This document shows, piece by piece, positions 5,409 to 24,352 of a DNA stretch of 64,000 nt (its first letter is position 1; each line of letters starts with the position of its first letter). A model generated the notes under the pieces. The model was not told the origin of the DNA. It ran no database searches and saw nothing but the letters and a program-made list of their open reading frames with translations. Origin of the DNA: Phycisphaerales bacterium (GTDB lineage: Bacteria; Planctomycetota; Phycisphaerae; Phycisphaerales; UBA1924); assembly GCA_023382935.1 (NCBI GenBank), contig JAHDXL010000003.1:365559-429558 (forward strand), in the 5' to 3' direction. The position numbers and the translations under genes were made by a program.

Positions 5409-5463
5409 GCCGAACCAAGGCACGAAGGCAATCAGAGCCTCCCGCGCAAGCGGGAGGTTTCTG
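5409..5463 (+). repeat. Post-gene dispersed repeat, copy C (after prkA)
   Basis: Contains cacgaaggc then aatcagagcctcccgcg and agcgggagg. It matches copies at 21675, 24289 and (inverted) 5521 in the core aatcagagcc-cccgcgc-agcggggg. It lies 25 bp past the prkA stop, in the same orientation as the gene. Confidence 0.6.
5438..5460 (+). terminator. Rho-independent-like terminator after prkA
   Basis: Perfect 8-bp stem cctcccgc / gcgggagg (5438-5445 and 5450-5457) with a gcaa tetraloop, followed by ttt. It is 55 bp after the prkA stop and is embedded in the dispersed repeat. Confidence 0.6.
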
Positions 5464-5520
5464 CCCATCGAAGCGATGTGCCCGCCTCCACCAGCACTTC
5501 GAACTCCCATTGGCTTTCTC

Positions 5521-5582
5521 GGTCGATCCCTCGCCTGCGCGAGAAGCCCTGATCGCGTCGCGCCTTCGTCTCCGTCCCTCAG
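5521..5582 (-). repeat. Post-gene dispersed repeat, copy D (inverted, after comEC)
   Basis: On the minus strand this reads gacgaaggcgcgacgcgatc then agggcttctcgcgcaggcga, a diverged version of the element at 5409, 21675 and 24289. It is oriented with comEC and lies just past its stop, so each of the two convergent genes has its own copy. Confidence 0.5.
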
Positions 5583-5605
5583 TCTGTTCGTCTCTACACA
5601 CACCC

Positions 5606-8104
5606 TTACCTTGCAGACCCCGATTCTAACCTTCCATCCTCATGCACCTCCACCCAGGCCGCACCGTCCGCCGCCGTCGTGAACCACACGCGGCTGGCGC
5701 GATGATCTCCCCACCGCACGTCCCCCACCCGGCTGCCCCCCGACGACTGAAGCACCACCGCCGGGTCCGCGGCCGCCAGAAAACTCATCGCCTCGACGCG
5801 GAAACTCCCGTGGTGCGGAATCTCCAGCACATCAGTCCGCACCTGCGCCACGTCCTCCAGCAGCCGCATCATCGCGCCTGGCTGGATGTCCCCGGTCAAC
5901 AACACGCGCCTCTCGCCGGCCTGCGTCGGCACGCTGATCCGGCACACCAGCGACTGCTCATTGTCAGGCATCGCCTCGGCCGATTCGTCGGGCCAGAGAA
6001 ACTCCAGTCGCCCGCGCCCAAATACCATCGCATCGCCCCGCCTCACCGGCTCAACGCGCGCGCCCTTCTCCGCCAGCAGCGCCAGCAGCGCCCGCTCGGG
6101 CTCGCCCGCATCGCTCAAAACGTGCGGCGACACCAGCACTCGCTCGATGCCCAGCAAGTCCACGGCCTCGGGCAGCGACGAGTAGTGATCGAGATTCCCA
6201 TGCGTCACCACACCCAGCCGCGCCCGCCGCACGCCCAGCGCGGGCAGTGCTCTTTCGAGCACCGGCCGCAGGTCCATCCGCAGCGAGCCGCAGTCCCACA
6301 TCATCGCTTCGCGCCCGCTGCGCACGATGTGACAGGTTCCGTCGCCCACCGCCAGCATGTCGATGCGCAGTACGACGTCGCGCGCCAACAGCCCGCGCGG
6401 CATCGGGCCCAGCATCTCCCACAGTACGAGCACTCCCAGGCTGGCGAGCACGCGCAGGTTTCGCACACGCCGCTCCGCCAGCCAGACACACAGCGCCAGC
6501 GCCGCCACCCCCGCCAGCAACCCCGACATCGGCAAAACCTCGAAAACCAGAAGCGGCGCGTCGGCAAGCCCGCGCACCGCCTCGCTCGTCTCCTGCGACA
6601 CCCACGCCAGTTGATCGAAGATCCACGCGCCAGCCGCTTCGTTCACCAGCCCCACCGCCAGCGCGAAGTACCCGACCCCCAGGAGCAGCACCATCGCCGG
6701 CGTCACCAAGGCCGTCGCGATCGGGCCGGCCAGCGACAGCGTCCCCGTGTGCGCCAGCACCAGGGGCGTGGCCACCGCCCAGCACAGCACGCACACCACC
6801 ACGTACGACCGCACCCATCGCCACGCCGACCTCCACCACGAGCGACGCAACCGCCTCAGCCCGCGAATCTGAGTCGGCGACACCCACGGGTGCCGAACGC
6901 TCGAGAGCCAGATTAGCAGCGCGGTGATCCCCACGCTCAGTTGAGCGCCCAGGCTGAACACGTCGAGCGGCCGCCACACAAACAGACCGCACGCGATCCA
7001 GCCCAGCAGCGTGAGCCGGTCATAACGCCGCCCGATCATGTCGCCGGCGAGCAGCGCCAGCACCATCACGCCGGCCCGCACGATCGGCACCTGCGCCGGC
7101 GTCAGCACCAGCAGCGCCATCACCAGTCCGCCCACCGCGATCGCTTCAAGCCGCCCGTGGTCGCCGGTCAGACGCACCGCCAGCACGCCCAGTCCGCACA
7201 GCACCGTCAGGTGGAAGCCCGAAATCGCGAGCAGATGTGCCGTGCCTGACTTGCGAAACGCGCTGCGCGTTTCGCGCAAGGCCGGGTCGATCTCGCCCAG
7301 CAGCAGGGCTGCGAGCATGGCGCGTCCCTCCCCATTCTGCCCGTCGCCGGCGACTTGCTCGAGCATCCGCCCGCGCACCCCCGCCACCAGCCGCACCCAC
7401 GCGCCGCGCACGTCGAGTCGGCGCGGCGCCAATACCTCCATCAGTCCCCGCGACGCAACCAGCATCGACCCGACCCTTCCCTCCATGTTGGCCCACGGGC
7501 GGGCATCCCTTTCGCCGGGGTTCAGGCCCGCCCGTGGCGGCGCGTACCACCCCTTCATCCGCACGCGATCGCCCGGCCGGGGCAGCGCCTCCACCTCGCC
7601 CGGCGAAACTCCAACCGTGACGCGCAGGTGCCCGCACGCCGGCTCGGCCCTTCCGCCGCTCCACAGCGCCGCCAATTCGAGATCGAAACTCATCACCGGC
7701 TCGAGGCGCCGGAACCGCGCCAGTTGGTCCCGGTGCGGCCACGAGGGCCTAGGCACGCTCGTCACCAGCCCCTCGGCGTCAATCATCTCCCGCTCGACTG
7801 GCCCGAGCAGAACCTGCGGCGACCGCGCGCCGGCCGTCGCCGTTCGCACCTCCAGCCACCACGCGCCCATCAGCACCAGCGCGGCCAGCAAGACCCACCC
7901 GACGAACCGGCGCGGCGCCAGCACTGCCGCCAGCGCCATCACCAGCGCGCCCGGTAGCCACGCCGCCGGCGACCCCTCGAGTGCGCGAGCCAGCAGCGCC
8001 CCGCACGAGAGCGCTCCGACCGTGCTCCACGCGCGGCGTCGCGCCCGCCGGGGCGAAGGGTGGATCAACTCCGATGTGTTCGCACTGTCAAACGTCGCGT
8101 CCAC
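5606..8104 (-). CDS. comEC: ComEC/Rec2-type DNA uptake channel
   Basis: 832 aa inner-membrane protein for transport of single-stranded DNA during natural transformation. Order: N-terminal membrane helices, an OB-like soluble part (about 100-200), the Competence domain with the diagnostic HLLAISGFHLTVL near residue 295, about eight more helices, then a C-terminal metallo-beta-lactamase-like domain (VVTHGNLDHYSS, LLTGDIQPGAM, EIPHHGSF). The lactamase metal motif reads HGNLDH where ComEC usually has H-x-D-x-D-H, so one ligand is Asn. The start is GTG at 8104 with no obvious ribosome site; no in-frame ATG is better. A strong terminator separates it from the pseudopilin upstream; the pseudopilin may function in the same DNA-uptake machinery, but this is inference. 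Confidence 0.9.
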   Translation of the reverse strand: MDATFDSANTSELIHPSPRRARRRAWSTVGALSCGALLARALEGSPAAWLPGALVMALAAVLAPRRFVGWVLLAALVLMGAWWLEVRTATAGARSPQVLLGPVEREMIDAEGLVTSVPRPSWPHRDQLARFRRLEPVMSFDLELAALWSGGRAEPACGHLRVTVGVSPGEVEALPRPGDRVRMKGWYAPPRAGLNPGERDARPWANMEGRVGSMLVASRGLMEVLAPRRLDVRGAWVRLVAGVRGRMLEQVAGDGQNGEGRAMLAALLLGEIDPALRETRSAFRKSGTAHLLAISGFHLTVLCGLGVLAVRLTGDHGRLEAIAVGGLVMALLVLTPAQVPIVRAGVMVLALLAGDMIGRRYDRLTLLGWIACGLFVWRPLDVFSLGAQLSVGITALLIWLSSVRHPWVSPTQIRGLRRLRRSWWRSAWRWVRSYVVVCVLCWAVATPLVLAHTGTLSLAGPIATALVTPAMVLLLGVGYFALAVGLVNEAAGAWIFDQLAWVSQETSEAVRGLADAPLLVFEVLPMSGLLAGVAALALCVWLAERRVRNLRVLASLGVLVLWEMLGPMPRGLLARDVVLRIDMLAVGDGTCHIVRSGREAMMWDCGSLRMDLRPVLERALPALGVRRARLGVVTHGNLDHYSSLPEAVDLLGIERVLVSPHVLSDAGEPERALLALLAEKGARVEPVRRGDAMVFGRGRLEFLWPDESAEAMPDNEQSLVCRISVPTQAGERRVLLTGDIQPGAMMRLLEDVAQVRTDVLEIPHHGSFRVEAMSFLAAADPAVVLQSSGGSRVGDVRWGDHRASRVWFTTAADGAAWVEVHEDGRLESGSAR

Positions 8105-8130
8105 GCGGGCCAGAGCGTACCGCGCCGATC

Positions 8131-8183
8131 AAAAACGAGCCGCCGAACCCGCGCCCGCGCAGGCGGACCGGTGGCGGCTCGTT
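8131..8183 (-). terminator. Terminator after the pseudopilin gene
   Basis: Perfect 11-bp stem aacgagccgcc (8134-8144) / ggcggctcgtt (8173-8183). Read on the minus strand it is followed by TTTTT, so it should stop transcripts of the pseudopilin before comEC. Confidence 0.75.
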
Positions 8184-8202
8184 CAGCATGACTCGTGAAA
8201 TC

Positions 8203-9342
8203 TCAGCCCCCGCCGCCGATGACGATGTCGTCAAACTCGGCGATGATGTCGCGCGTGGTCGGATTCCCCTCGTCGTCGGTCAGCCGGGTTGACGGGTTGG
8301 CGAAAAAGTTCAGACCGTACTCGATGTGGTTACCCTCGTGCGCCACCGTCGAGAAGCCCTTGTCCTTGCTGCTCAGGTAGATTCCGTCGGCCCCGGCCGA
8401 GTGCAGCACAAACGCCCCGCGACCCATGCCCGGGAACAGGTTCTCGATGCTCGCCTCCGAAGGGCTTGCCAGCAACTGGTCCACCGCCTGCCCGCTCGGC
8501 GCCCGAGGCGCCGACACGCTGCCCAGCAGCCCGCTCATCGTCAGGATGCGATGCTGGTCGCTGGCGCCCGGGCCGAGCAGACTGGCCCGCTCACCCGGCT
8601 GCGGTGCGGGCGTCTGGTCATATCCCTTGCGCCCAAGGGCCGTCGAACGCAGAAACGCCGCGTTCGAATTCCAGTAGAACAGCGCCGTCGTGCTCGCCGA
8701 CGAAATCTGCGCAAACTGGTCCTTGCTGTTCACCCGCGGAAGCGTGTAAGTGTCGGCCGACCAGAACAGCACCGGGCTGCCGAACGCATCCACCACGTCC
8801 AGCAACTGCACGTCCGTCTCGTTCGCCCCCGCATGCCCCGGCACACTGCTGATCTGCTGCGTCCCCGCGATCTGCGCCTCGTAATACTCACGGGACGGCG
8901 CAAAATACGACCCCTTGTCCGTCCCCATCAGCGGCGCACGCACCACCACCTGCTCGCGCGTGTTGTTCGTCGGCCCCACCGCAATGTCGCCCAGACTGGC
9001 GTTCAACGGGGTGTCAAACACGCTGCCGATGATCGCGCCCTGACCGGCCAGGTCGAGCATCGCGTTTTCCATGCCCGACATGCCGCGCGTTGCGTTGTCA
9101 GAACTGCCCATCTGGCGCTCGGAGAAGTACCCCGGGTTGCGACCCTGGTTATCCAGTTTGAACCGCCCCGCCGCTCCGGCGATGTCGCTGAGCAACTGCT
9201 GCGAGGCCAGGCGCTTGCCCGTCGTCCGCGCCCCGCTCAACACCGGGATGATGATCGAGATCACCAGCGCGATAATGGCGATCACCGTCAGCAACTCCAC
9301 GAGGCTGAACCCTCTTGCTTTCATGTCCGTCCTCGAGCGCAT
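8203..9342 (-). CDS. Type II secretion/type IV pilus-like pseudopilin
   Basis: 379 aa from the ATG at 9342, preceded on the minus strand by AGGAG with good spacing; the alternative MKARGF start is 18 bp downstream. Residues 7-35 form a classic prepilin leader: KARG / FSLVELLTVIAIIALVIS, with cleavage expected after Gly and Glu at +5 of the mature protein. The rest is a large soluble domain with no family I recognise. It is rich in Ser/Thr/Asn and ends in FDDIVIGGGG. Planctomycetes encode many such proteins, assembled or anchored through the pilin helix in the envelope. It is monocistronic by the terminator downstream. Function beyond pilin-like export is unknown. Confidence 0.8.
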   Translation of the reverse strand: MRSRTDMKARGFSLVELLTVIAIIALVISIIIPVLSGARTTGKRLASQQLLSDIAGAAGRFKLDNQGRNPGYFSERQMGSSDNATRGMSGMENAMLDLAGQGAIIGSVFDTPLNASLGDIAVGPTNNTREQVVVRAPLMGTDKGSYFAPSREYYEAQIAGTQQISSVPGHAGANETDVQLLDVVDAFGSPVLFWSADTYTLPRVNSKDQFAQISSASTTALFYWNSNAAFLRSTALGRKGYDQTPAPQPGERASLLGPGASDQHRILTMSGLLGSVSAPRAPSGQAVDQLLASPSEASIENLFPGMGRGAFVLHSAGADGIYLSSKDKGFSTVAHEGNHIEYGLNFFANPSTRLTDDEGNPTTRDIIAEFDDIVIGGGG

Positions 9343-9559
9343 GCTCGGCTCCTCGACCCGACCCGATACTTGAGTGATCCGCGCTCGGATGCTCCACACC
9401 GCATCCAACGCCGTCTGGGGCAGCACGAAACCTGCCCGCGACCAGACCAGCCGCGGAAGACGGCCTCCCACTATACGACCGCGATCCGCCCAGGATGCCC
9501 CAACCGTCGCAGCCCCCCACATTTCTTGACGCACCCCCCAACGGCTACCCTGCTGCCCG

Positions 9560-9901
9560 ATGCCGGACTCTTCATCGACAGGCCCCAACCTGTTCACCCG
9601 CAACGCCGTGTGCGAGCACTGCGGGTATCACCTCTCCGGCATGCCGATCATCGACGAGTCGACCCGGTGCCCGGAATGCGGGAAACTGACCCACTTCCGC
9701 TTGCAAGCGTCCGATAAGCCTGTCCAGCCTCGTGATCGCGGGATGGGTTTCGCCGTCACCGTCGGGATCTTCCTGCTTGCCGTCGGCCTGCCCGTGTCAT
9801 TCCTCGTGCCGACTTGGGCGCTGGGAGTGATCGTGTTAGCCCTGGCGGTGGCCGCGCTGGCCGTCGCCCCACGCATGGTCCGCCGCTGGATCGGGTTGTG
9901 A
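9560..9901 (+). CDS. Small zinc-ribbon membrane protein
   Basis: 113 aa. Residues 18-41 form a Cys4 ribbon (CEHCGYHLSGMP...CPECGK), then two hydrophobic helices (FAVTVGIFLLAVGLPVSFLV and LGVIVLALAVAALAVA), ending in a short basic tail. This ribbon pattern, C-x2-C-x-Y-x-L-x-G with CPECG, recurs in Phycisphaerae proteins and also occurs at the C-terminus of the transporter at 54141. No enzymatic motif is visible. It may sit in the membrane with the ribbon in the cytoplasm. Divergent from the pseudopilin at 9342; no convincing Shine-Dalgarno. Confidence 0.7.
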   Translation: MPDSSSTGPNLFTRNAVCEHCGYHLSGMPIIDESTRCPECGKLTHFRLQASDKPVQPRDRGMGFAVTVGIFLLAVGLPVSFLVPTWALGVIVLALAVAALAVAPRMVRRWIGL

Positions 9902-9955
9902 AACCAGACCTGAAGACCGCACCACTGTCCGGCGCGGCCACAGGCCCAATCCCGC

Positions 9956-11230
9956 TCACGCCTCGGCCCCGAAGTCGAAACTCATCCGGTACCCCGTGCG
10001 CCAGGCCGGATAGGTCAGGTCGCACCGATACCCGACGTAGTCAGCCGGGTCGAGCCCGTCGGCATCGAACAGGAGTCTGAGCACCTCGGGATAGCGGGTG
10101 TAGGCGTCAGTGCGGGCGCTGCCCGGCGCCAGCAGTTCCAGCCGCACCGGGTCGGAAAAGCGCGTCTGCCAGCGTTCGCCCACCCGGGTCGAAAAGTCCG
10201 GTCGCCACAGGTGATGATCTAGGCCGGGCAGACACTGGCGCGCCAGCGATCGGTGCAGAAACACGTCGAACAGCATCCGCCGCACCGGGAAGTTCACCAG
10301 CGCCCACACCTCTTCCAGCGTGTTGGTGCGACTGGCCGGGTGCGTCATCAACCCGCGCAGGCCGAAGAGCAGGTCGATCGGCAACTCTGGTGCTCCCGGC
10401 TCGCGATCGATCGTCTGCACAACGTGCTCGCCCGGCTCCTTTGAGCGCACCACCGGGAGCGGCTGGGTCGAAAACGCCCGGAGAATGGCATCCGGCTCAC
10501 CTTTGAGCAGCGGGCGATACACGCCGACTTCATCGGGGTTCTCTGCACACACCTCGGTGCTGAAGACGTGAAACGTCAGGGGCACCGCATCGGGGCGCGC
10601 GTGGTGCCCCAGCAGCCCGTGCACACGCGACTGGATCAGCCGATCGGGCGTCGGCCCCGGTGTATAGACATGGGACGCCAGCCACAGGTGCGACCACCGC
10701 CCGGTCAGTTCCGCAGCCGCTTCGAACAGCCGCTGGCGCGTCGACCCATCTTCCTTTGCAAGCCTCCCCGGAGTCTGACTGGTCAGCCCGGCCAAACGAC
10801 GAAGCAAGCCGCTGCGACTCCCACCCAAGCGCCGAATTTCGGCTTCGAGCCGTGCGATGCAATCCGCCAAACGCTGCGAATCGGACAGTGCATACCCGGC
10901 CGCCTCGATCGCCTCGAGCAACGTTCGCAGACCGCGCGGTCCGGGGAGCGCTTCGATCAATCCGAGACCCGGATAGGGGGACGTGACCGCCGACACCACC
11001 CTCTGGCAGGTGGTCCGCTCGACCCCGCTGGCTCGGCTCAGTCCGCTGGCGGTCTGCGCTTCGGGGGGCAGATCGCTCAACATGGCCCGCAGGGACTGGA
11101 AGAGCGCCTGGAGGGTCTGGTCGAGCCCGGCGGCCTCCCCCGGAGCCAGATCCGACTCGGCGGGCGCTTCCACCCGAATTGGGGAACTGCCCAGGTTCAT
11201 GACGTACTTGCTCGACTTTCCTCTTGACAT
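9956..11230 (-). CDS. Putative HTH-containing regulator, unknown family
   Basis: 424 aa from the ATG at 11230 (the frame extends to 11263, into the promoter region). Residues about 55-85 (ASGLSRASGVERTTCQRVVS) look like a helix-turn-helix; the remainder has no domain I recognise but contains conserved-looking stretches (SHLWLASHVYTPGPTPDRL, LMTHPASRTNTLEEVWALVN). It is highly charged with no signal peptide or membrane helix, so cytoplasmic. It is divergent from a secreted PAP-tailed protein, with inverted repeats between them that could be its own operator. Regulatory role is inferred only from the HTH-like stretch and the context. Confidence 0.5.
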   Translation of the reverse strand: MSRGKSSKYVMNLGSSPIRVEAPAESDLAPGEAAGLDQTLQALFQSLRAMLSDLPPEAQTASGLSRASGVERTTCQRVVSAVTSPYPGLGLIEALPGPRGLRTLLEAIEAAGYALSDSQRLADCIARLEAEIRRLGGSRSGLLRRLAGLTSQTPGRLAKEDGSTRQRLFEAAAELTGRWSHLWLASHVYTPGPTPDRLIQSRVHGLLGHHARPDAVPLTFHVFSTEVCAENPDEVGVYRPLLKGEPDAILRAFSTQPLPVVRSKEPGEHVVQTIDREPGAPELPIDLLFGLRGLMTHPASRTNTLEEVWALVNFPVRRMLFDVFLHRSLARQCLPGLDHHLWRPDFSTRVGERWQTRFSDPVRLELLAPGSARTDAYTRYPEVLRLLFDADGLDPADYVGYRCDLTYPAWRTGYRMSFDFGAEA

Positions 11231-11235
11231 GGGCC

Positions 11236-11278
11236 CAGCATATGCTGAAACTGTGCTCAGCACAAGCGGAACACAGTT
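11236..11278. promoter_or_regulatory. Inverted repeats in divergent promoter region
   Basis: Three overlapping dyads: the perfect palindrome cagcatatgctg (11236-11247); tgctga / tcagca (11243-11248, 11257-11262); and aactgtg / cacagtt (11249-11255, 11272-11278). They lie between the start of the putative HTH protein and the secreted protein gene, a natural place for an autoregulator site. A TTGACA at 11224-11229 on the plus strand overlaps the first gene's start. Confidence 0.45.
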
Positions 11279-11322
11279 GCGTGTTCATGCGAATCCAAGG
11301 GCAGCATACTGAGGAGACGACG

Positions 11323-12012
11323 ATGAAGCAGGCAATCTTGGCGTTGTTGGTGGCTGGCGGCGTGGCAAGCGCGGACGTAACCACCTTTGACTCCGGCACC
11401 GAGGGCTGGTCGGTCAGCGGGCGCGACAACCTCTCCCCTGTCGGCGGAAACCCCGGGGCCAACATGGACGTCGAGGTGATCGACGTGTTCGGAGCCGACA
11501 TCCGCAACAGCACGGCCGCCTTCACCGGCGACTACCGCGGTCGAGGCCACCTCACCTTTACCGTGGACATCCGCATCGACTCGATCAATATGTTCGGCAC
11601 TGAGGTGTCGCGCGACCTGGTGATCGAACTGCGCAACTACGACACCCCGAACTGGGGCGGGTTCACGTCCATCTACGCTCACCTGGGCACGCTGAGCAGC
11701 GCCCTCACTTCCGACTGGACCACCTTTCAGGCCGTGCTCGATACGAACGCGGTCGGCTTGCCCAGCGGGTGGTTCGGTGCCGGCGATGAAGACCCCAACA
11801 CCTTCGAGCCCATCCTGCCGCCCGGCGTGAGCGTGCAGGACGTGCTGTCGGGAATCGACGAAATCTCGTTCACCACCTTCGTGCCCGGATACTTCTTCGG
11901 GTTCACCAACTTCATCATGGCGGTGGACAACGTGGGCTTCGTCCCGGCACCGGGCACGGGCGTGGCGTTGCTGGGCGCGGTGGGACTGGGTGCGCTCCGA
12001 CGGCGCCGGTGA
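11323..12012 (+). CDS. Secreted protein with PAP-type (PEP-CTERM-like) sorting tail
   Basis: 229 aa from the ATG at 11323, preceded by GAGGAG (11311-11316). The N-terminus is a short signal peptide (KQAILALLVAGGVASA, cleavage near residue 18). The body (TTFDSGTEGWSVSGRDN..., DLVIELRNYDTP) resembles beta-sandwich laminin-B/carbohydrate-binding-like domains seen in other PEP-CTERM proteins; this is a loose resemblance. The tail is VPAPGTGVALLGAVGLGALR plus RRR: a short motif (here PAP rather than PEP), one hydrophobic helix and an arginine cluster, the arrangement recognised by exosortase systems. No exosortase is in the window. Ligand unknown. Confidence 0.75.
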   Translation: MKQAILALLVAGGVASADVTTFDSGTEGWSVSGRDNLSPVGGNPGANMDVEVIDVFGADIRNSTAAFTGDYRGRGHLTFTVDIRIDSINMFGTEVSRDLVIELRNYDTPNWGGFTSIYAHLGTLSSALTSDWTTFQAVLDTNAVGLPSGWFGAGDEDPNTFEPILPPGVSVQDVLSGIDEISFTTFVPGYFFGFTNFIMAVDNVGFVPAPGTGVALLGAVGLGALRRRR

Positions 12013-12043
12013 GATGGATGACGAATCTCTGGTTCCCTCTCCA

Positions 12044-12080
12044 CGCCCGCTCGGCTCGCAAGGCCGGGCGGGCGTTGTTG
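12044..12080. terminator. Convergent-gene terminator
   Basis: 12-bp stem cgcccgctcggc (12044-12055) / gccgggcgggcg (12063-12074), one G-T wobble, 7-nt loop, followed by ttgttg. It sits between convergent genes ending at 12012 and 12094. Confidence 0.6.
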
Positions 12081-12093
12081 CAGGCGCGAGGAA

Positions 12094-12909
12094 TCAGGGT
12101 TTCTCGGCGATGAGTTCGTAGACGGTTGGCAGGTGGATGAACGAGTCCGGGTCGTTGGTCGCGTCGGCCCACGCCTGGTCGAAGGCCTGGTGTTGCTGCG
12201 CGGTCAGGTAGCCCGCCTCTTCGAGGCGCGGCATGAACGTTTTCCAGAACACCGTGGGCCAAGTCCACATCTGCTCGTGGGGGTGGGCAAATCGTTGGAT
12301 GACCTCGCGGTGGATGATCCGGAGTCCGGCCTTGCGGAGCAGGGCGGGCATGCCGCCCATGACGTCGGGGTTGCCGCCGCGGTCACGCCAACTCTGCGCG
12401 ACGGCCTGGATCCCTCGTGAGAAGGCCTCCCGGCGCGGAGCCAGCGACATGCACTCGTAGTTGAAGTAGTCCTGGATGACCAGCCGCCCACCCGGCTTGA
12501 GCAGTTCGGCCACTTGGGCGACCACGGTTCCGGGGTCTTGGACGAAGCAGAGCACCCAGCGGACGTAGCCCATGTCGAAGGGCGCTTCTCCGGCGGCGGC
12601 CAGGGCGATCTGGTGCACGTCTCCCGGAACGGCCGAGGCCCAGGGCAAACCGGCGGCGGACATGGCCTGATTGAACCACTGGACGTACCGATCGGACTCA
12701 TCGACACCGAAGACCGAGCCGGCAGGGCCGACGATTTGGGCCATGTCCAACGAAGCCCAGCCCGGGCCGCAGCCGACGTCGAGCACGCGCCACTCGGGGC
12801 GGAGCCCGGCGCGTTCCCAGGCCTGGTGGGCGCATGCGGACCAGAGACGGTGTTGCAGGCCGAGGCGAATGCGTTCCTGCTCATCGGTACCGAGGACATA
12901 TTCGGGCAT
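12094..12909 (-). CDS. Class I SAM-dependent methyltransferase
   Basis: 271 aa from the ATG at 12909 (MPEYVLGTDEQERIRLG). Motif I VLDVGCGPGWASLDMAQ (about 42-58) binds SAM; GVDESDRYVQWFNQA is motif II; DMGYVRWVLCFV and LLKPGGRLVIQDYFNY are motifs IV and V. The set matches Methyltransf_11/UbiE-like enzymes acting on small molecules. The C-terminal half (WTWPTVFWKTFMPRLEEAGY) should determine the substrate and is unfamiliar. Divergent from the MFS transporter at 13028, perhaps sharing regulation. No ribosome site is evident; an upstream in-frame start cannot be excluded. Confidence 0.8.
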   Translation of the reverse strand: MPEYVLGTDEQERIRLGLQHRLWSACAHQAWERAGLRPEWRVLDVGCGPGWASLDMAQIVGPAGSVFGVDESDRYVQWFNQAMSAAGLPWASAVPGDVHQIALAAAGEAPFDMGYVRWVLCFVQDPGTVVAQVAELLKPGGRLVIQDYFNYECMSLAPRREAFSRGIQAVAQSWRDRGGNPDVMGGMPALLRKAGLRIIHREVIQRFAHPHEQMWTWPTVFWKTFMPRLEEAGYLTAQQHQAFDQAWADATNDPDSFIHLPTVYELIAEKP

Positions 12910-13027
12910 GGGGGAAAGGGTAGAACGGTCGCGATTGAATCGCATCGGGGAGCGGGGAAGATTGCCTGCGTGGGGCCGAGGACAGGCCGCGATGGGAGAC
13001 GAGAGTTCGCGACGATTCATTCCGTTC

Positions 13028-16821: not shown

Positions 16822-17067
16822 ATGAGTCGCTTCAATCGTTTCGGACCACCCACTCCCCAGGGCAAACTGACCAAGACCGGGGCCAACGGCACGGTCTACG
16901 TGGACTGGAAGGACATCGAGTCCCTCCGCCGCGCCATGAGCCCCAACGGGAAGATCTACGGGCGCAAGCGCCTGGGTACCACGGCCCGCGAGCAGAAGAT
17001 GGTTGCGGCGGCCGTGAAGCGCGCCCGCTTCATGGGCCTGCTGCCCTTCACGTCCGCGACGCTCTAA
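16822..17067 (+). CDS. rpsR: 30S ribosomal protein bS18
   Basis: 81 aa. YVDWKDIESLRRAMSPNGKI then YGRKRLGTTAREQKMVAAAV and KRARFMGLLPFT align with the bS18 core that binds 16S rRNA and pairs with bS6 on the platform. The start is the ATG at 16822. The usual neighbours rpsF, ssb and rplI are absent, so it stands alone between a redox operon and an fRMsr gene, 9 bp from the latter. The Cys residues of zinc-binding bS18 forms are missing. Either this is the only copy, relocated, or a second zinc-independent paralogue. Confidence 0.9.
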   Translation: MSRFNRFGPPTPQGKLTKTGANGTVYVDWKDIESLRRAMSPNGKIYGRKRLGTTAREQKMVAAAVKRARFMGLLPFTSATL

Positions 17068-17076
17068 ACTGGCACC

Positions 17077-17559: not shown

Positions 17560-17571
17560 CACCAGACCACT

Positions 17572-17612
17572 GAAACGAGCCGCGACCCGTCAGAAAGCGG
17601 TTTTCGTTTTCC
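17572..17612. terminator. Possible terminator, msrC/rluA convergence
   Basis: Imperfect stem gaaacgagccgc (about 17572-17583) with gcggttttcgtttt (about 17596-17610), with bulges and T-richness on the right arm. It lies between convergent genes. Confidence 0.4.
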
Positions 17613-17643
17613 AGAGTCCCTCCGTCTCGGCCGGGGCTCGTCG

Positions 17644-18330
17644 TCAGAACGGCGCGTCGGAGCGCACCGTGACGCGGCGCAGCGTGTCGGGGTCGGTGAT
17701 CGTCAGTTCGCAGGCGTGGAGCATGAGGCGCGGCGCGGGATACTCGGGGTCGTACAACTTATCGCCGACGATGGGACAGCCCAGGCCCCCGATGTCTCTC
17801 GAAGCCCACGCATGCATGCGGAGTTGATGGGTCTTGCCGGTGACGGGGCCGAACTCGACGCGGGTGTGCACGCCGCCATCTTGATCTGCCTCCACGCCGA
17901 GCACGCGCCAGTGGGTGATGGCCCTGGCCCCCTGTTCGAAGTCGACCATCTGGCGCGGGCGGTTGGACCAGTCGGCGCGTAGCGGCAGATCAACCACGCC
18001 CTCGTCTCCATTGGGTCGTCCCCGGAGGAGGGCGAGGTATCGCTTGTCGGCCCGGCGCCGCTGGAACTGGAGTGAGATGTGCCGCTGGGCGTCGTGATCG
18101 AGGGCAAAGACGATCAGCCCGCTGGTGGGCTGGTCGAGCCGGTGGCAGATCATCGGCCCCGAGGCCGAGGGGAACAGGGCTGCCACCTGCGAGCAGGCGC
18201 AGACCTGGTTCTCCGCGCTCCGCCCGGGCACGCTGAGCATGTCGGCCGGCTTGTCGATCACGACGAAGCGCGAGTGCTCGAAGAGCACGCGAACCGGCGG
18301 CCACTGGTAGGTTGGCGGGCTAACGTTCAC
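17644..18330 (-). CDS. RluA-family pseudouridine synthase
   Basis: About 228 aa. FVVIDKPADMLSVPGR, PMICHRLDQPTSGLIVFALD (motif II, catalytic Asp in HRLD), KRYLALLRGRP and GPVTGKTHQLRMHAWASRDI mark the RluA family, which isomerises uridine to pseudouridine in 23S rRNA or tRNA. There is no S4 domain. No in-frame ATG precedes the domain; GTG at 18330 or 18351 is the best start, without a clear ribosome site. The open frame beyond 18373 runs antisense through the next gene and is rejected. The short length resembles RluE/TruC-like single-domain members; the target nucleotide is unknown. Confidence 0.85.
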   Translation of the reverse strand: MNVSPPTYQWPPVRVLFEHSRFVVIDKPADMLSVPGRSAENQVCACSQVAALFPSASGPMICHRLDQPTSGLIVFALDHDAQRHISLQFQRRRADKRYLALLRGRPNGDEGVVDLPLRADWSNRPRQMVDFEQGARAITHWRVLGVEADQDGGVHTRVEFGPVTGKTHQLRMHAWASRDIGGLGCPIVGDKLYDPEYPAPRLMLHACELTITDPDTLRRVTVRSDAPF

Positions 18331-18372
18331 TGTCGGACTGTAGAGTGCCACTTGTGAAAGGGGAGTGCTTCG

Positions 18373-19620
18373 ATGCAACTGGTCTTGGCCGCGTGTGTGA
18401 GCGCTTTCCTCGGGCAGACCGACTGGGCCCAGATGGAAGCCCCGATCCTGACCGAGCAGGTGCAACTGACCTTCCCCGACCTGTTCGTCAAGGCGGGTGA
18501 GGCGTACTTCGCACCGTCGGGCAAGCACATCATCTTCCAAGCGACGCCGGTGCCGGCGGAGGGTCAGCAGCCGGGGCCGCACTACGAGATGTACGTGGCG
18601 ATGCTGCGGACCGATGGAGAAGGCCAAAGCAGGTTGGAAATCGGACCGAACGGCGAACGCCGCGAGGTACCAAGTGATCAACTTCCGACGGGCGAACTGA
18701 TGAGCATCATCCAGGTGAGCCAGACCGGCTCGGCCAACACATGCGGGTGGTGGCACCCGCTCCAGCCCGAGGTTGTGCTGTTCGGATCAACGATCCTCCC
18801 GCCCGACGCGCCAGACAAGGCGGGATATCAGCGCGACTCAGGGCGGTACCGCTGGCAGTTCCCGGCCGAGATGGAGATCGTGGTTGGGCAGGTTCGCCTG
18901 CGCCGTGGGCGCGGCCCGATCGCCTATTCGCCGATCATCACGCCGCTGTGGAAGGAGCCGGGCTACTCGGCCGAGGGCTCGTGGTCGCCGGACGGGAAGT
19001 TCGTGCTCTACACCTGGGTGAACCCGGACACCAGCGACCCCGACATATATCTGCGCGATCCTGCGACGGGATATGTGACGCCGATCGTCGAAGCCGAGGG
19101 ATACGACGGCGGGCCGTTCTTCAGCCCAGATGGACACTGGATTACGTATCGCTCGGACCGCCGCGGCGACAACCTGCTGCAGATTTTCATGGCCGAGTTG
19201 TCCTTTGACAACCAGGGACGTCCGAACGGGATCAAGCGCGAAATCCAACTGACTGACAACGAGTACGTGAACTGGGGCCCGTTCTGGCATCCGTCGGGGG
19301 CATTCCTGGTGTACTCGACCAATGAGGCGGCGCCGGAGGCGCACAACTACGAGGTGTTCGCCATCGATGCCCGCGCCACCAGCGAGCATCCGAAGAAGTT
19401 GCGGCTGACGTTTGCCGAGGGATTCGACGGTCTGCCGGTGTTCAGCCGCGACGGCTCCATGATGATGTGGACCAGCCAGCGCGGCTCGCCCACCAAGCCC
19501 GGCGAGCGCCCCAGCAGCCAGATCTGGCTGGCCAAGTTCAACTTCGAGGCCTTCATCGAAAAATTCAGCCAGGTATCGGCCGCGCCGGCCCCGGCAGCAA
19601 GCCACGGCGACCATGATTGA
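18373..19620 (+). CDS. TolB-like beta-propeller (PD40) exported protein
   Basis: 415 aa; GGGGAG lies 7 nt before the ATG. A short signal-like N-terminus (QLVLAACVSAFLGQTDWAQ) precedes PD40/TolB blades with the hallmarks YFAPSGKHIIFQA, GSWSPDGKFVLYTWVN, GPFFSPDGHWITYRSDRRGD, GPFWHPSGAFLVYSTN and LPVFSRDGSMMMWTSQRG. These propellers sit in the periplasm and bind proteins or glycans. The C-terminus ends in a His/Asp tail. Its stop overlaps the start of an alpha/beta hydrolase gene, and a third gene overlaps that, so the three are an operon. No enzymatic residue is evident. Confidence 0.82.
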   Translation: MQLVLAACVSAFLGQTDWAQMEAPILTEQVQLTFPDLFVKAGEAYFAPSGKHIIFQATPVPAEGQQPGPHYEMYVAMLRTDGEGQSRLEIGPNGERREVPSDQLPTGELMSIIQVSQTGSANTCGWWHPLQPEVVLFGSTILPPDAPDKAGYQRDSGRYRWQFPAEMEIVVGQVRLRRGRGPIAYSPIITPLWKEPGYSAEGSWSPDGKFVLYTWVNPDTSDPDIYLRDPATGYVTPIVEAEGYDGGPFFSPDGHWITYRSDRRGDNLLQIFMAELSFDNQGRPNGIKREIQLTDNEYVNWGPFWHPSGAFLVYSTNEAAPEAHNYEVFAIDARATSEHPKKLRLTFAEGFDGLPVFSRDGSMMMWTSQRGSPTKPGERPSSQIWLAKFNFEAFIEKFSQVSAAPAPAASHGDHD

Positions 19621-20740
19621 GCCCTCGGACTATGGGCTGAGCGCCGCGGAAACCCTCGCTCGCGTGGGTGACCCCACCCGCGCGCGCGATCACAAGGTTT
19701 TCTGGACGCAGTGGTGGCAGGCAGTCACCAGCGCCCGACCAATCCTCGTCGAGCGGCGCGAGCACGACCGCAGCGACCCGTCGGCCACGCACGAGTTTGA
19801 GAGCATCCGGCATGTGCGCATCGGCTGCCGGTTTGTGCGGCCGGAGGGCACGCTCAAGGCGATCGTGGTCATTACGCACGGATACGACACGGTGCCGAGC
19901 CTCGAGGAGCAGGCTCGCCAGCACGCGGCTTTGGCGGCCGAAGGACTCGGGCTGTTGCTCGTGCGCGTGCGGGGCTTTGCTGGCTCGCGCCTGGACACCC
20001 CGCAACTGCCCGAAGGCGGCAGGAGCGGCACGGGGTGGATCACCTGCGGGCTGGACATCCCCGGCGAGGGTCCAACGGCGATCAACCCCTGGGTGGTGCC
20101 GCAGGCCGTGGCCGACGTGGTCAACGCCTGTCGCGCGGCGCGCAATCTGCTGATCGATGAAGTGGGAAGCGAAGCACACGTCGGGCTGATGGGCGAGTCT
20201 CTGGGCGCGACGTTGAGCGTCGTGTCGGCGGCGCTGCTCAACGGACGACTGCCCCACGACCCGGTGGTCGAGCGCCTGGTGTTCGGGCTGCCGACCATGA
20301 GCGACTGGCCCTGGCGCCAGACCCAGCCGGCGCCCACCACCGGCACAGGCGCCGAGATTCAGCAAGCGCTCGATCGTGCCACCGAGGCCGACCGGCAGAT
20401 GATGCTTGATCGCCTGCGCGTCATGGACCCGGTGGTGCATGCAACCCATGTCCGCTGTCCCGTGCTGTGCAAACTGGCGCTGCGCGACGATGTGGCCCCG
20501 GCGCCCGCGGCCGCGGCGGTGTTCAACGCTCTGGGCAGCGACACGGGACGCAAGTGGCGTTTTATCGTTCCCTACGGACATTTTGACGGGGGGCTGACCA
20601 ACGCGCGCCGGCATGCGCTCTTCGATCGCTGCGCGGCCGACTTCCTGCACCCGGGCGTGCATCCGCGTGATTCCATGCGGCGCTGGGACGGGACATTCAT
20701 GGCCGGTGAACGCTTGGCCGATCCGGCGGAGAAGGCATGA
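19613..20740 (+). CDS. Alpha/beta hydrolase
   Basis: 375 aa. VVITHGYDTVP is the oxyanion-side HG motif, GLMGESLGATLSVVSA carries the nucleophile elbow G-E-S-L-G near residue 203, and VPYGHFDGGLTN supplies a likely catalytic His near residue 325. CPVLCKLALRDDVAPAPAAA contains the candidate acid, as in acetyl-xylan-esterase-like hydrolases. No signal peptide, so cytoplasmic, unlike its TolB-like neighbour. Starts inside the upstream stop (8-bp overlap) and overlaps the downstream gene by 4 bp. Substrate unknown. Confidence 0.8.
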   Translation: MIEPSDYGLSAAETLARVGDPTRARDHKVFWTQWWQAVTSARPILVERREHDRSDPSATHEFESIRHVRIGCRFVRPEGTLKAIVVITHGYDTVPSLEEQARQHAALAAEGLGLLLVRVRGFAGSRLDTPQLPEGGRSGTGWITCGLDIPGEGPTAINPWVVPQAVADVVNACRAARNLLIDEVGSEAHVGLMGESLGATLSVVSAALLNGRLPHDPVVERLVFGLPTMSDWPWRQTQPAPTTGTGAEIQQALDRATEADRQMMLDRLRVMDPVVHATHVRCPVLCKLALRDDVAPAPAAAAVFNALGSDTGRKWRFIVPYGHFDGGLTNARRHALFDRCAADFLHPGVHPRDSMRRWDGTFMAGERLADPAEKA

Positions 20741-21672
20741 CTCGATCGCTGCACACGCTGCTGGAAGGGCTGATCGACTACGCGGGGCTGTTTCCACCGG
20801 CCGGGCTACCGATGGACAAGGCTGTCGAGAACTACGCGCGCTACGCGATGGGCGAGCATGCCTCTGCTCTGGGACGATTCATCTGCCCGGTGTCGCGCCT
20901 GGAGGAGTTCTCAAGGGCTGCTGCGCCCCTCATGCCCGGCACCTTTGCGACCAGCGGTTACCGGGAGATGGCCGACGCCCCGGCGTGGCGGCTCTCGGCG
21001 ATCATCGACGCCCCGCTCGACGAGTGCATGGTGAAGGTCGATGCCTTCAACGAGCATCACGAGAAGGAGGAAAACGGCAAGGCAGGGATCGAGACGATCG
21101 AGTTGAAGGTCGACGACGCCGACGCGATCGACGAGGCGCTCGACCTGCTGCCCAAAGACATCACGCCCTATTTTGAGATCGCCACCGGCCGCGACCCGCG
21201 GGGATGCATCGCGGCCCTTGCTGGAGAGAGCGCGGGGGCGAAGATCCGCTGCGGGGGTGTGACACCGAGTGCCATCCCTCCGATCGAGGCGGTGGCGGGG
21301 TTCATCGCGGCCTGCGCGCTGGCCAACGTGCCTTTCAAGGCCACCGCCGGTCTGCATCACCCGGTGCGGGCCGAGCAGGCATTGACGTATGACGCCCACC
21401 CACCGCGCGCCGTGATGCACGGATTTGTCAACGTATTCCTCGCCGCAGCATTCCTGTTCGATCGAGCGCTCGATGAGTCCGCCGCGCGGGCGCTGCTGGC
21501 CGAGAACGACCCCAAGGCCTTCGCGTTCACCGACACCCACGCGCGCTGGCGCGAACGGACGATCGGCATCGACGCGCTCGCCAAGGCGCGCTCGCACCTG
21601 GCGCTGGGCTACGGCAGTTGCTCGTTTGAGGAGCCGATCTCCGACCTGCAGGCGCTTGGGTGGATGGGCTAA
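20737..21672 (+). CDS. Conserved protein of unknown function
   Basis: 311 aa, ATGA overlap with the hydrolase. Opens LLEGLIDYAGLFPPAGLPMD, a start I have seen in uncharacterised proteins of acidobacteria and planctomycetes. KIRCGGVTPSAIPPIEAVAG and VPFKATAGLHHPVR suggest a TIM-barrel-like core with basic residues and a His pair that could bind a phosphorylated or carboxylate ligand; FATSGYREMADAP is also conserved-looking. No signal peptide or helix. I do not assign a reaction. Its place after a hydrolase suggests it handles the released product. Confidence 0.55.
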   Translation: MTRSLHTLLEGLIDYAGLFPPAGLPMDKAVENYARYAMGEHASALGRFICPVSRLEEFSRAAAPLMPGTFATSGYREMADAPAWRLSAIIDAPLDECMVKVDAFNEHHEKEENGKAGIETIELKVDDADAIDEALDLLPKDITPYFEIATGRDPRGCIAALAGESAGAKIRCGGVTPSAIPPIEAVAGFIAACALANVPFKATAGLHHPVRAEQALTYDAHPPRAVMHGFVNVFLAAAFLFDRALDESAARALLAENDPKAFAFTDTHARWRERTIGIDALAKARSHLALGYGSCSFEEPISDLQALGWMG

Positions 21673-21674
21673 AA

Positions 21675-21745
21675 AGCACGAGAAGAGACCAAAAGGCGCA
21701 AGGGGATTGAATCAGAGCCCCGCGCCAGCGGGGGTCTTGTTGCGC
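21675..21745 (+). repeat. Post-gene dispersed repeat, copy A
   Basis: Begins 3 bp past the stop of the gene at 20737. Contains cacgagaagagaccaaaagg, gattgaatcagagccccg and gccagcgggggtc. Homologous to copy B at 24289 over about 120 bp, including the hairpin that follows, and to shorter copies at 5409 and 5521. Confidence 0.65.
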
Positions 21746-21768
21746 CGGTCGAGAGGAACAGGAATCGT

Positions 21769-21800
21769 GCCGGCAACGTCCGTCGCCGGACGTTGCCGGC
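21769..21800. repeat. Perfect 14-bp stem hairpin
   Basis: gccggcaacgtccg (21769-21782) pairs exactly with cggacgttgccggc (21787-21800) around a 4-nt loop. There is no T tract after it. The equivalent place in copy B (about 24373-24403) reads gtcggcgatgtccgtcattg and the second arm is decayed. Confidence 0.7.
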
Positions 21801-21902
21801 GTTGGTCAAACGTCCGCACGAAAGCAGCCACCTTGAGATCAAGGTTGCGGGCACCCGCTCGAGCGCAAACCCGCGTCAGTCCGATGGAGTAGGAAGGGAA
21901 TC

Positions 21903-22550
21903 ATGGCGCGCCCACGCTTTTCAACCATGCTCGCCTTCACCGCCGCCGGTGCGCTGGGCGTGGGTGCGTCGCTGCTGGGCTATCACCTCATCCGGGCGGA
22001 TGTGGCCGAGAGCGTGTACCGCCAGCGCCTCGAAGACATCGCCGGGCGTTACGAGAGCCTGCGCGAGCAGTACAACGAGGCAGTGCGACGCACAGCCGTC
22101 ACTGAACTGCTGGTACGTGACGGCAGACTCAGCGTGCGCATCTGCAACGCCGCGGGCGTGGTCAAGGAAATCCCGACTGACTTCAACCCGGCAGGCGAGA
22201 TTTACGTCGATTACGCGATCGTCGATGGGCGGTTGTGGATCCGCCGAGTCTTCGACGCCCAGACCCCCCCGGCGCGAGGGCTGCTGGTCGATCCGTCCCT
22301 GGCGAACATCGACTGGGACGGCGGGAGCGCCACGTTCGGCAAGGCCGTCTACCGCAGCCTCGGCGAAGGGCGCTGGGTGGTCTCAGCGAGCGGTGACGGG
22401 AGCCTGGAACTGCGGCAGGCCGGCAAGGAGCCGGCCGTGCTCTCGCCCCCGCCGCGCCTCGGGACATTTGACGAGATCGACTCGGAGTTGCGCCGACGCC
22501 TTGACGACATTGGGCCCGGCGACGTGTGGAAGCAGTTCTGGGGCACCTGA
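21903..22550 (+). CDS. Membrane-anchored protein of unknown function
   Basis: 215 aa; AGGAAGGG a few bases before the ATG. One N-terminal helix (TMLAFTAAGALGVGASLLGY) followed by a short coiled-coil (residues about 35-65, VYRQRLEDIAGRYESLREQY) and a globular domain with VRICNAAGVVKEIPTDF and IYVDYAIVDGRLWIRRVFDA. It resembles the general layout of periplasmic anchored proteins in planctomycetes; no catalytic motif is visible. 20 bp before the thioesterase gene, probably cotranscribed. Confidence 0.6.
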   Translation: MARPRFSTMLAFTAAGALGVGASLLGYHLIRADVAESVYRQRLEDIAGRYESLREQYNEAVRRTAVTELLVRDGRLSVRICNAAGVVKEIPTDFNPAGEIYVDYAIVDGRLWIRRVFDAQTPPARGLLVDPSLANIDWDGGSATFGKAVYRSLGEGRWVVSASGDGSLELRQAGKEPAVLSPPPRLGTFDEIDSELRRRLDDIGPGDVWKQFWGT

Positions 22551-22570
22551 CGTTTCCTACACTGCCCGCG

Positions 22571-23053
22571 ATGACCGAACGCCCGACGCACGCGCCGGCT
22601 CCATTGGTGCCCGTCCCCGATCGCGGGGTGACGCAGGTGCGCGTCCGCTACTGCGAGTGCGACCCCATGGGCGTGGCCCATCACGCCAGTTACGTCCCGT
22701 GGCTGGAAATGGCCCGAACCGAAATCCTGCGAAACGCGGGCGTCACCTATGCCCAACTCGAGCAGGCAGGCGTGTTCCTGGTCGTCACGAAACTCGAGTT
22801 GCGCTATCGGCGCCCGGTCCGATACGACGATCTGCTGGAGATCCGCACGCGCGTCGTCGGCGGCAGCCGGATCAAAATCCGGCATGAATACGAGGTATTG
22901 GTGATCGAACGCGGGGGGCAGGCACCCAACCCCCACGATCCTAGCATCCCTCTGGACGGCGTCTGTTGCGTCAGTTCAAGTGAACTGGCCTGCGTGGACC
23001 GAAGCGGACGCCCCCAGGCGCTGCCGGAATGGCTTATCCCTGCGGGCGAATAG
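22571..23053 (+). CDS. Acyl-CoA thioesterase, YbgC/4HBT hot-dog family
   Basis: 160 aa. VRVRYCECDPMGVAHHASYV carries the family Asp and the following Gly-Val-Ala-His-His (usually DxMGVVxH), then WLEMARTEILRNAGVTY and KLELRYRRPVRYDDLLEIRT. These enzymes hydrolyse acyl-CoA or 4-hydroxybenzoyl-CoA thioesters; members near tol genes act in lipid metabolism. The catalytic Asp is present. The N-terminus has about 20 extra residues rich in Pro. No neighbour points to a specific substrate. Confidence 0.85.
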   Translation: MTERPTHAPAPLVPVPDRGVTQVRVRYCECDPMGVAHHASYVPWLEMARTEILRNAGVTYAQLEQAGVFLVVTKLELRYRRPVRYDDLLEIRTRVVGGSRIKIRHEYEVLVIERGGQAPNPHDPSIPLDGVCCVSSSELACVDRSGRPQALPEWLIPAGE

Positions 23054-23064
23054 TTATTGATTCC

Positions 23065-23092
23065 TTGAAGATCCGAATATCTTGAATATCAT
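23065..23092 (+). promoter_or_regulatory. Putative sigma-70-like promoter of the porin gene
   Basis: TTGAAG (23065-23070), 16-bp spacer, TATCAT (23087-23092), in a locally AT-rich stretch 35 bp upstream of the porin ribosome site. Two cttga(a)-at words lie between the boxes. Confidence 0.4.
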
Positions 23093-23127
23093 CCTCCCTA
23101 CGCGCATTTCTCAGCGGGAGGTGATTC

Positions 23128-24285
23128 GTGCTGGCATTGGCCGTCCTGTGCACCGGACTCGCGTGCGGGTTGGAAACCACGGACGAGGCGCGGGCGTTTG
23201 AGCGCGAACTGCTCGGGCAGGCCGGTCGCGACAAGATGTTCTATGTCGAGCAGCCCGGCGGACCCAAACTGAACCTGGGTGGGTACATGCAGTTCCGCTA
23301 CTACGGCGTGGTCGGAGGCGACCAGACGCCTGAGGATGTGACCAGCGGTTTCACGATGCAGCGGACGCGCCTGCTCATCAGCGGCAAGTTGGCCGAGCCG
23401 AAGATCGAGTTCCTGATACTCCCCTCGGCGGGGCCAAACGGGAAGGTCAGCGTGTTTGATGCGTGGACGAAGTGGAACATCAACGACCAGTGGTCGCTGA
23501 CGATCGGTCAGTTCAAGTTGCCGCTGCTGCGCGAGTGGCTGGTAGCCGAGCGATACCTGCTCGCGATCGAGCGCTCAGTGGTGAACACGACCTTCTGCAC
23601 GATCTACTCGCAGGGTGTGCAGGCCGAGTATAAGGGCGAAAGTCTGCACTTCATGGCGGCGGTGTCCGACGGCATCCGCGGGTTCAACACGCCCTACGAC
23701 GCGCCGGGCGAGGCGGACTACGCGCTGACCGCGCGATTGGAAGCGCTGTTCGACGGCACTTGGGCCCAGTTCGGCGACATCACCAGTTTGGGCAACGAGC
23801 AGAGCGGACTGATGGGGGGCGTTGCGATTCACCACCAGGGACACACCGACACCTTCGCGGCCGTGCCGATCGACACGCTGACCGAACTGACGCTGGACCT
23901 GTCGTGGGAAGGGCGGCGCGCCTCAATCATGGCCGGGGGAGTGGCGCGATACGTGGAACGCGACGGGGGCGACGACTCGGTGGACTGCGGCGTGCTGGTG
24001 CAGGGCGGCGTGTTCGTCAGCGACACGGTCGAGTTGTACGCGCGGGGGGCGATGGTCATTCCGGACAGCGATTCGAGCGGCGACGATCCGTTCCCGGCCA
24101 TCACCGGCGGGCTGACGTGGTACATCGCCGGGCATGCCCTGCGCTTCAAAGCCGACGCGGAGTGGTTCCCAAACGATCTGCCCGACACGGTGATCCTGAA
24201 CTTCGGACCCGACACCGGCTCGGGGCTGCTCGGCCCCGGGGGTGGACAGGTGGCTGTGCGGGCCGAGTTGCAGTTGGTGTTCTGA
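23128..24285 (+). CDS. OprP/OprO-like outer-membrane porin
   Basis: 385 aa with a GTG start at 23128, chosen because GGGAGGTGA ends 4 nt upstream. Residues 45-140 show the OprP signature: GGYMQFRYYGVVGGD, TMQRTRLLISGKLAEPKIEF and DAWTKWNINDQWSLTIGQFK. Alternating beta-strands follow and the protein ends in Phe (QLVF), as expected for an outer-membrane beta-barrel inserted by BAM. Such porins pass anions such as phosphate or pyrophosphate; the size is close to the family. The leader is short (MLALAVLCTGLACG). The repeat copy B starts right after its stop. Confidence 0.8.
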   Translation: MLALAVLCTGLACGLETTDEARAFERELLGQAGRDKMFYVEQPGGPKLNLGGYMQFRYYGVVGGDQTPEDVTSGFTMQRTRLLISGKLAEPKIEFLILPSAGPNGKVSVFDAWTKWNINDQWSLTIGQFKLPLLREWLVAERYLLAIERSVVNTTFCTIYSQGVQAEYKGESLHFMAAVSDGIRGFNTPYDAPGEADYALTARLEALFDGTWAQFGDITSLGNEQSGLMGGVAIHHQGHTDTFAAVPIDTLTELTLDLSWEGRRASIMAGGVARYVERDGGDDSVDCGVLVQGGVFVSDTVELYARGAMVIPDSDSSGDDPFPAITGGLTWYIAGHALRFKADAEWFPNDLPDTVILNFGPDTGSGLLGPGGGQVAVRAELQLVF

Positions 24286-24288
24286 GAG

Positions 24289-24352
24289 AAGGGACGAGAA
24301 GACAAAGCGGGATGGAGTCTGAGCCGCGCGCGCCAGCGAAGGGTTTCACGCC
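24289..24352 (+). repeat. Post-gene dispersed repeat, copy B
   Basis: Starts 4 bp past the porin stop: gagaagggacgagaagacaa, then gagtctgagccgcgcgcgcc and agcgaaggg. It is the more decayed partner of copy A at 21675. Confidence 0.6.

Follow-up and report, generated by a model that had tools for sequence, protein, structure and literature searches.

The repeats that stand behind four genes of the window, by which we mean the whole 64-kb stretch of DNA analyzed here, belong to a hairpin family that we named F1 (TCAG-AG-CCYCCYGC-GCNA-GCRGGRGG). F1 is dispersed through the planctomycete genome to which the window belongs (G000; 3.72 Mb, 35 contigs, 95.4% complete), in more than these four copies. 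According to our best reading, it is an orphaned REP-like family kept behind stop codons and in permissive protein loops. F1 works like a REP and probably derives from one. However, in its host it differs in two respects from the GTAG REPs as described in the available text of two studies (PMC3733652, PMC6006769): its foot is TCAG or ACAG and not GTAG or GTGG, and no transposase was found.

The four window copies are each located behind a gene of the same strand, the gene boundaries being those of a codon-usage caller trained on the window and not of a standard annotation. Copy A (5425..5466, + strand, with its stem at about 5438–5457) follows a PrkA-type serine kinase gene (3200..5383, +; Pfam PF08298 and PF06798). 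The degenerate copy B (5518..5559, −) follows a gene for a Competence/DUF4131 protein (5606..8104, −; PF03772 and PF13567). Copy C (21705..21744, +) lies behind a gene without Pfam match at E ≤ 0.001 (20737..21672, +), and the degenerate copy D (24311..24352, +) behind a Porin_O_P gene (23128..24285, +; PF07396). An AAA ATPase gene (24491..26032, −), predicted by the gene caller and Pfam, converges on D. Both C and D adjoin a second repeat, F2. The 26-nt cores of A, B, C, and D start 49, 54, 40, and 33 bp past the stop codon, respectively. The hairpin cores reported in the initial annotation were thus confirmed on the strands claimed, each past a called stop (33–54 bp), although the starts given there lie further upstream.

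We built a covariance model, R1, from 10 copies of F1. A, B, C, and D score 46.7, 33.8, 42.6, and 40.2 bits, but these values are not independent because all four are among the 10 sequences. As an independent test of the window, a model made from other genomes only (R3, 29 sequences) was searched against 464 kb. It gave three matches, including A (E = 2.3e-6) and C (E = 0.0035); B and D were not matched at E ≤ 1 in these 464 kb. Pairwise local alignments, each compared with 500 simple shuffles, relate C to D over 176 columns (score 95.5, best shuffle 39.5) and A to B over 39 columns (39.0, best shuffle 31). A also aligns with C (40.5, best shuffle 39.5) and with D (39.5, best shuffle 30.5), while the B–C score (32.0) was equaled by 10 of 500 shuffles and the B–D score (38.0) by 2 of 500. 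A likeness over 120 bp, as described in the initial annotation, therefore exists for the copies at 21675 and 24289 but not for those at 5409 and 5521. The long likeness of C and D is partly due to F2 following F1 at both places. Predicted RNA folding is much better than in shuffled sequences for A (z = −4.25, 5384–5480) and C (z = −3.53, 21673–21760), and no better for B (z = 0.52) and D (z = +1.68). On the alignment and R3 results, D is assigned to F1 through its similarity to C, and B, the weakest copy, through its similarity to A and the presence of AATCAGAGC at the same site in a sister species. The exact sequence AATCAGAGCC is found at six sites in the genome, four of which, including A and C, bear the hairpin; its reversed control is found at none. 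When up to two mismatches are allowed, the window shows no enrichment of the ten-letter core, with 41 matches against an expectation of 47.9. Rfam gave no match in the window at gathering scores.

At least 57 R1 matches were obtained in G000 at E ≤ 10. R1 copy numbers are lower bounds, 150 of 6,925 first-look candidates having been scored. We examined the best 40 of the 57 matches (E ≤ 0.13), leaving out the remaining 17, and all 37 matches at E ≤ 0.001 in G010, which belongs to another genus of the same family. At this latter threshold, a search of 26 genomes yielded at least 27 matches in G000, at least 37 in G010, at least three in G002, and at least one in G006, and none in the other 22, including G001 of the same genus as G000. 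At E ≤ 0.1, preset stretches of G000 totaling 400 kb contained two copies versus four in the 64-kb window, suggesting that the window is rich in F1; all four window copies and one of the two others are model seeds. A degenerate 25-nt pattern corresponding to one form of F1, CAGAGCCYCCYGCGCVAGCRGGRGG, identified 67 stretches among 84,980 species genomes, a collection that may omit records of the window's own genome. All 67 come from five Planctomycetota assemblies: JADFOF, JADFGU, CAIVHJ, JAUZRR, and JAJRZG.

The stem of F1 is conserved by covariation. Across 38 copies of G000, pairing holds for 88.7% of the stem cells, and two-sided changes affect 29 cells, compared with 8.2 ± 5.2 in shuffled and at most 9 in slid alignments; R1 models the stem, so that the copies collected favor paired ones. 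The foot is mostly TCAG followed by AG in G000 and mostly ACAG followed by AG in G010. A GT[AG]G foot was observed in none of the 40 and 37 copies of these genomes. Unlike in CGTC REPs, no CGTC end occurs among the tabulated feet of F1, the opposite end having been judged by eye. Three inverted pairs are present among the 40 G000 copies, A and B forming one of these.

F1 copies are preferentially located past the stop codon of a same-strand gene. We compared the 36 copies outside the window, six of which are also R1 seeds picked regardless of placement, with random positions in 20 × 20 kb of the same genome. Twenty-nine are intergenic with both neighbors called, six overlap genes, and one lacks a neighbor. 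Among the 29, a gene of the same strand ends upstream of 25 (40.4% for random positions, binomial p = 8e-7), 20 are within 70 bp past a same-strand stop (17.7%, p = 2e-9), and 22 are in convergent gaps (13.5%, p = 4e-14). Three of the four exceptions are oriented against co-directional genes and one is in a divergent gap. In comparison with the 6 of 36 copies, 91.6% of the random positions overlap called genes, only 8.4% being intergenic. Copies therefore do not lie inside genes or before starts as often as past same-strand stops. The initial description as a post-gene family applies to most copies, although not purely, since some lie within genes. Likewise, pointing along the gene is true of 25 of the 29 intergenic copies outside the window but not of the co-directional gaps of G000, where the orientation is even (three versus three); in those of G010 it is 10 to 1. 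The 37 copies of G010 comprise 10 overlapping genes, six without neighbor on the contig, and 21 intergenic ones, of which 19 are past a same-strand stop. Within convergent gaps outside the window, 15 of 22 copies are closer to the stop of the gene whose direction they share (p = 0.13); with the window included, this holds for 18 of 25 (p = 0.04).

Among the six G000 and ten G010 copies overlapping genes, reading of the frames placed eleven well within the gene, four of them in G000 and seven in G010; seven are in sense and four in antisense orientation. The others lie at the end of a gene or in a frame that is doubtful. By Pfam, the sense hosts encode a dehydrogenase E1, an asparagine synthase, an amidohydrolase (HutI by PDB matches), a TruA-type pseudouridine synthase, a glycosyl transferase 2, PurL-type AIRS/FGAR-AT domains, and DNA polymerase I exonuclease domains. 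Five in-frame hosts were compared with solved homologs. In the PDH E1-alpha homolog, 14 residues are missing precisely at F1. The homologs of HutI, TruA, and PurL are shorter around the F1 site by 38, 36, and 55 residues, more than the coding share of F1, which suggests a gain of further sequence at these places. For PolA, the F1 site lay outside the alignment, and the comparison was not counted.

Comparison with sister species separates the window copies into two groups. At site A, both G002 and G001 retain a hairpin that lacks the AATCAGAG foot and flank; in G001, CCTCCCG...CGGGAGG is followed by CTTTTTT, a tail of six T. At site B, AATCAGAGC is retained in G002. Conversely, both F1 and F2 are unrecognizable at site C in G002 and G001 and at site D in G002. 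A and B therefore look old, whereas C and D were either gained in the G000 lineage or lost in its sisters. The G001 hairpin without F1 flank suggests that some of the copies may be ordinary terminators.

F2 is an element of about 95 bp with the ends CGTGCCGGCAA...TTGCCGGCACG, the terminal repeats GTGCCRGCAA...TTGCYGGCAC, and two inner hairpins. Initially taken for a part of F1, it is a separate repeat. It is found directly behind C (21760..21860, +; 96 bits with model R2) and, decayed, directly behind D (24366..24462, +; 71.5 bits), both being R2 seeds; other F2 loci are L067–L103. Matches were obtained in three of the 26 genomes, all of one genus (36 in G000, eight in G002, and three in G001, several representing both strands of one place), and in none of the other 23. 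Among the 30 best copies of G000, 29 are intergenic, 15 are in convergent gaps, and several are flush with a stop codon. At E ≤ 0.001, F2 directly follows F1 in the same direction in three of 40 cases (C, D, and L041), at −14 to +16 nt. There are two further cases, L048 and L054, if weaker F2 matches (E = 0.73 and 0.006), added because of their location there, are counted. F2 resembles the bacterial MITEs described in the text available of a previous study (PMC3733652) by its terminal inverted repeats, inner hairpins, size of about 95 bp, and dozens of matches, and like them it has no coding capacity that we could see. It differs from them by the absence of a target duplication, as judged by eye, and by its restriction to one genus among the 26 genomes.

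A tail was counted as T-rich if five or more of the 9 nt following the stem are T; the T fraction of the genome is 0.17. Such tails are carried by 7 of 40 copies in G000, 3 of 37 in G010, 1 of 23 in JADFGU, and 17 of 23 in CAIVHJ. All window copies fall below this threshold (four, one, three, and three T for A to D). A consensus terminator scan of the window listed nine sites, compared with 9.9 ± 3.6 in shuffles, and C was the only one of the four copies among them. As judged from sequence, the earlier suggestion that some copies double as terminators may hold for the 7 of 40 in the genome, but not for the window copies, none of which is T-rich. These shares fit an occasional co-option of F1 as predicted terminator, differing by lineage.

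The REP-associated transposase sought in this genome was detected neither with PF01797 nor with A3, a six-row alignment of a small RAYT-like subfamily, in an assembly 95.4% complete. Of the 26 genomes searched with PF01797, 20 have matches, and within the order A3 matches 88 of 201 genomes. However, a stand-alone Y1_Tnp gene of a relative, L236 (1423–1905, −, in G028, i.e., JAUZRR), has matches to the F1 model on both sides. Four R3 matches lie within about 130 bp, one 18 bp past the stop and three within about 125 bp upstream, and a fifth is 1.2 kb off (E = 0.001–0.005). Three 8-bp hairpins were listed there, the distant one included; the sequence preceding the stem is GTAGAG in two of them and GTGGAG in the third. 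L260 in G113 is the same transposase locus, and G028 and G113 may be the same species. The homologous gene of G006 (L232) is surrounded by four related 7-bp hairpins, two per side, with weak R3 matches (E = 0.56–0.69). R3 was run on 43 of the 51 loci of the transposase search and gave no match at E ≤ 1 except at L236, L260, L232, and L238; among these 43, F1 flanks are clear only at L236/L260 and weak at L232. The one strong match at L238, upstream of an alaS frame, is itself an R3 seed (L189), and another has an E value of 0.7. The Y1 loci of the F1-rich G010 (L235 and L240) and of JADFGU (L237) have no R3 match.

Transposase domains were also identified within housekeeping genes of relatives. 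In at least 14 of the 201 genomes from the order, a single open frame contains both ValS and a transposase of the A3 type. Eleven of these genomes (G022, G023, G052, G057, G061, G062, G092, G130, G133, G136, and G187) were recognized because the two matches agree in contig, position, and frame length, and three by reading (G107, G146, and G004). In all ten ValS frames read (L245, L246, L249, L250, L251, L264, L265, L266, L268, and L269), the insertion lies between a DQWY...VTD stretch and CISRQLWW; in L249 and L251, the transposase at this site is of a different Y1 type. Seven of the eight A3-type cases have GAGCCGCGACCGTNAGGGAGCGG on the left and its inverted form on the right (GAGCCGCGACCG-type REPs), the left one being one base off in L266; the eighth, L250, has a different hairpin pair, as judged by eye. 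Pfam recognizes Y1_Tnp inside frames with ValS domains in L245, L246, and L250, and in LeuS frames in L248 and in L235, where a stop codon parts the first LeuS piece from the rest. It is also recognized with AlaS in L238, where the contig ends within the insert, in Ham1 frames in L239 and L241, and, at the cut-off (23.1 bits), in an IPP transferase frame in L253. For L258 (Ham1), Pfam gave no Y1_Tnp at E ≤ 1e-4, though PF01797 matches at E = 2.1e-4. The ValS frame of G000 is 1076 aa long, and this genome has no A3 match. Beside the transposase domains of L239, L241, L258, and L249, the peptides GTGFQPV, RLEAGPT, and GGTDLQSV look by eye like translated further REP families. Nothing was recognized as a valS transposase cassette in the open-access literature text covered.

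As far as the text available of two previous studies describes them, canonical REPs have a GT[AG]G foot, with degenerate variants in some families, and lie mainly downstream of genes, some being in frame within genes; they are present in Planctomycetes (PMC6006769, PMC3733652). Like these GTAG REPs, F1 is a short dispersed hairpin with a 4-nt foot and inverted pairs. It is likewise found mostly downstream of genes, in convergent and co-directional gaps, with some copies in frame; a further parallel comes from a related genome, in which hairpins resembling F1 surround a Y1 transposase. The likeness to REP elements noted initially is therefore supported by the small hairpin with its short 5′ foot, the dispersed and patchy family, the inverted pairs, and the in-gene copies, as well as by the Y1 transposase with F1-like flanking hairpins in a relative. 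Rickettsia palindromic elements, likened here by their description in the text seen of PMC3733652, are also found in frame in housekeeping genes, as are some F1 copies, but F1 is mainly intergenic and post-stop. The F1 sequence family itself was not recognized in the passages of open-access text covered.

Could F1 be immobile, and simply the intrinsic terminator that this lineage favors behind its genes, whether by convergence or by vertical inheritance? The placement past stops, the T-rich tails in G000 (7 of 40) and CAIVHJ (17 of 23), the hairpin retained at site A in both sister species, with CTTTTTT in G001, and an apparently orthologous pair with TTTTT tails (L059/L105) are all in its favor. 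We nevertheless consider this explanation unlikely. No T-rich tail is present in 33 of 40 copies in G000, 34 of 37 in G010, and 22 of 23 in JADFGU, copies lie in frame and antisense inside genes, and the common 5′ foot does not mirror a T tract. Moreover, 22 of the 26 genomes, which presumably need terminators too, have no match.

It is less probable still that F1 travels as a passenger or terminal part in a composite F1+F2 element moved by an F2 system and not by a RAYT. The likeness of C and D, spanning both repeats, points in this direction, as do the three of 40 copies followed by F2 (C, D, and L041) and the two more on weaker matches. Against such a composite, 35 of 40 F1 copies have no listed F2 match behind them, G010 has at least 37 F1 matches and no F2, and F2 is confined to three genomes of one genus among the 26. 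A chance likeness of GC-rich hairpins, finally, is highly improbable. It would agree with the lack of enrichment of the mismatched ten-letter core in the window, and with B and D being missed by R3 and folding no better than shuffles. It conflicts with the independent R3 matches to A and C, the C–D likeness, the stem covariation, and the limitation to few planctomycetes. For A and C, and by way of C also for D, chance is refuted, and only B stays weak.

We therefore favor, with a probability of roughly two in three, the reading of F1 as a REP-like family that arose by RAYT-type copying, whose transposase was lost or never fixed, and that survives behind stops and in protein loops. Its copies are palindromes of about 40 nt, able to fold as single strands and provided with a short 5′ foot. 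A Y1 (HUH) transposase of a small RAYT-like clade, characterized by TYGTWLHGD, would have copied them to new sites, and its gene would have been lost from the G000 lineage or never fixed there. Copies would survive where they are least harmful or somewhat useful, that is, past stops, chiefly in convergent gaps, and in frame in permissive loops; the placement is an observation, the selective reason for it is what we infer. The T-tailed minority may serve as intrinsic terminators, and at C and D, F1 adjoins the genus-restricted F2. This explanation is supported by the placement, the covariation, the patchy matches, the restriction to five assemblies, the in-frame copies, the absence of C in the sister species, and the flanking hairpins of L236 and L232. 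Several observations speak against it: the lack of a detected RAYT and of the GT[AG]G foot in G000, the small number of F1-flanked Y1 loci, and the hairpin of site A, tailed but unflanked in G001. The preference of the R1 stem model for paired copies also weakens it.

More tentatively, the REP/RAYT system may live partly inside housekeeping proteins in this planctomycete order, probably Phycisphaerales, with F1 in frame in enzyme loops and REP-RAYT-REP cassettes in frame at a single site of valS and in further genes, the window copies of F1 then being orphaned debris of this system. The cassettes would be comparable to unspliced inteins, in a refuge where only precise excision would be a harmless loss. 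G000 thus appears as a genome full of REP-like repeats without detected RAYT, beside relatives that may hold the cognate enzyme. The loss of the transposase, the decay of the repeats, and their conversion to terminators or protein loops could therefore be compared species by species. Together, the in-frame F1 copies and the transposase domains in valS, leuS, alaS, Ham1, and IPP-transferase genes make a housekeeping shelter without splicing a testable idea.
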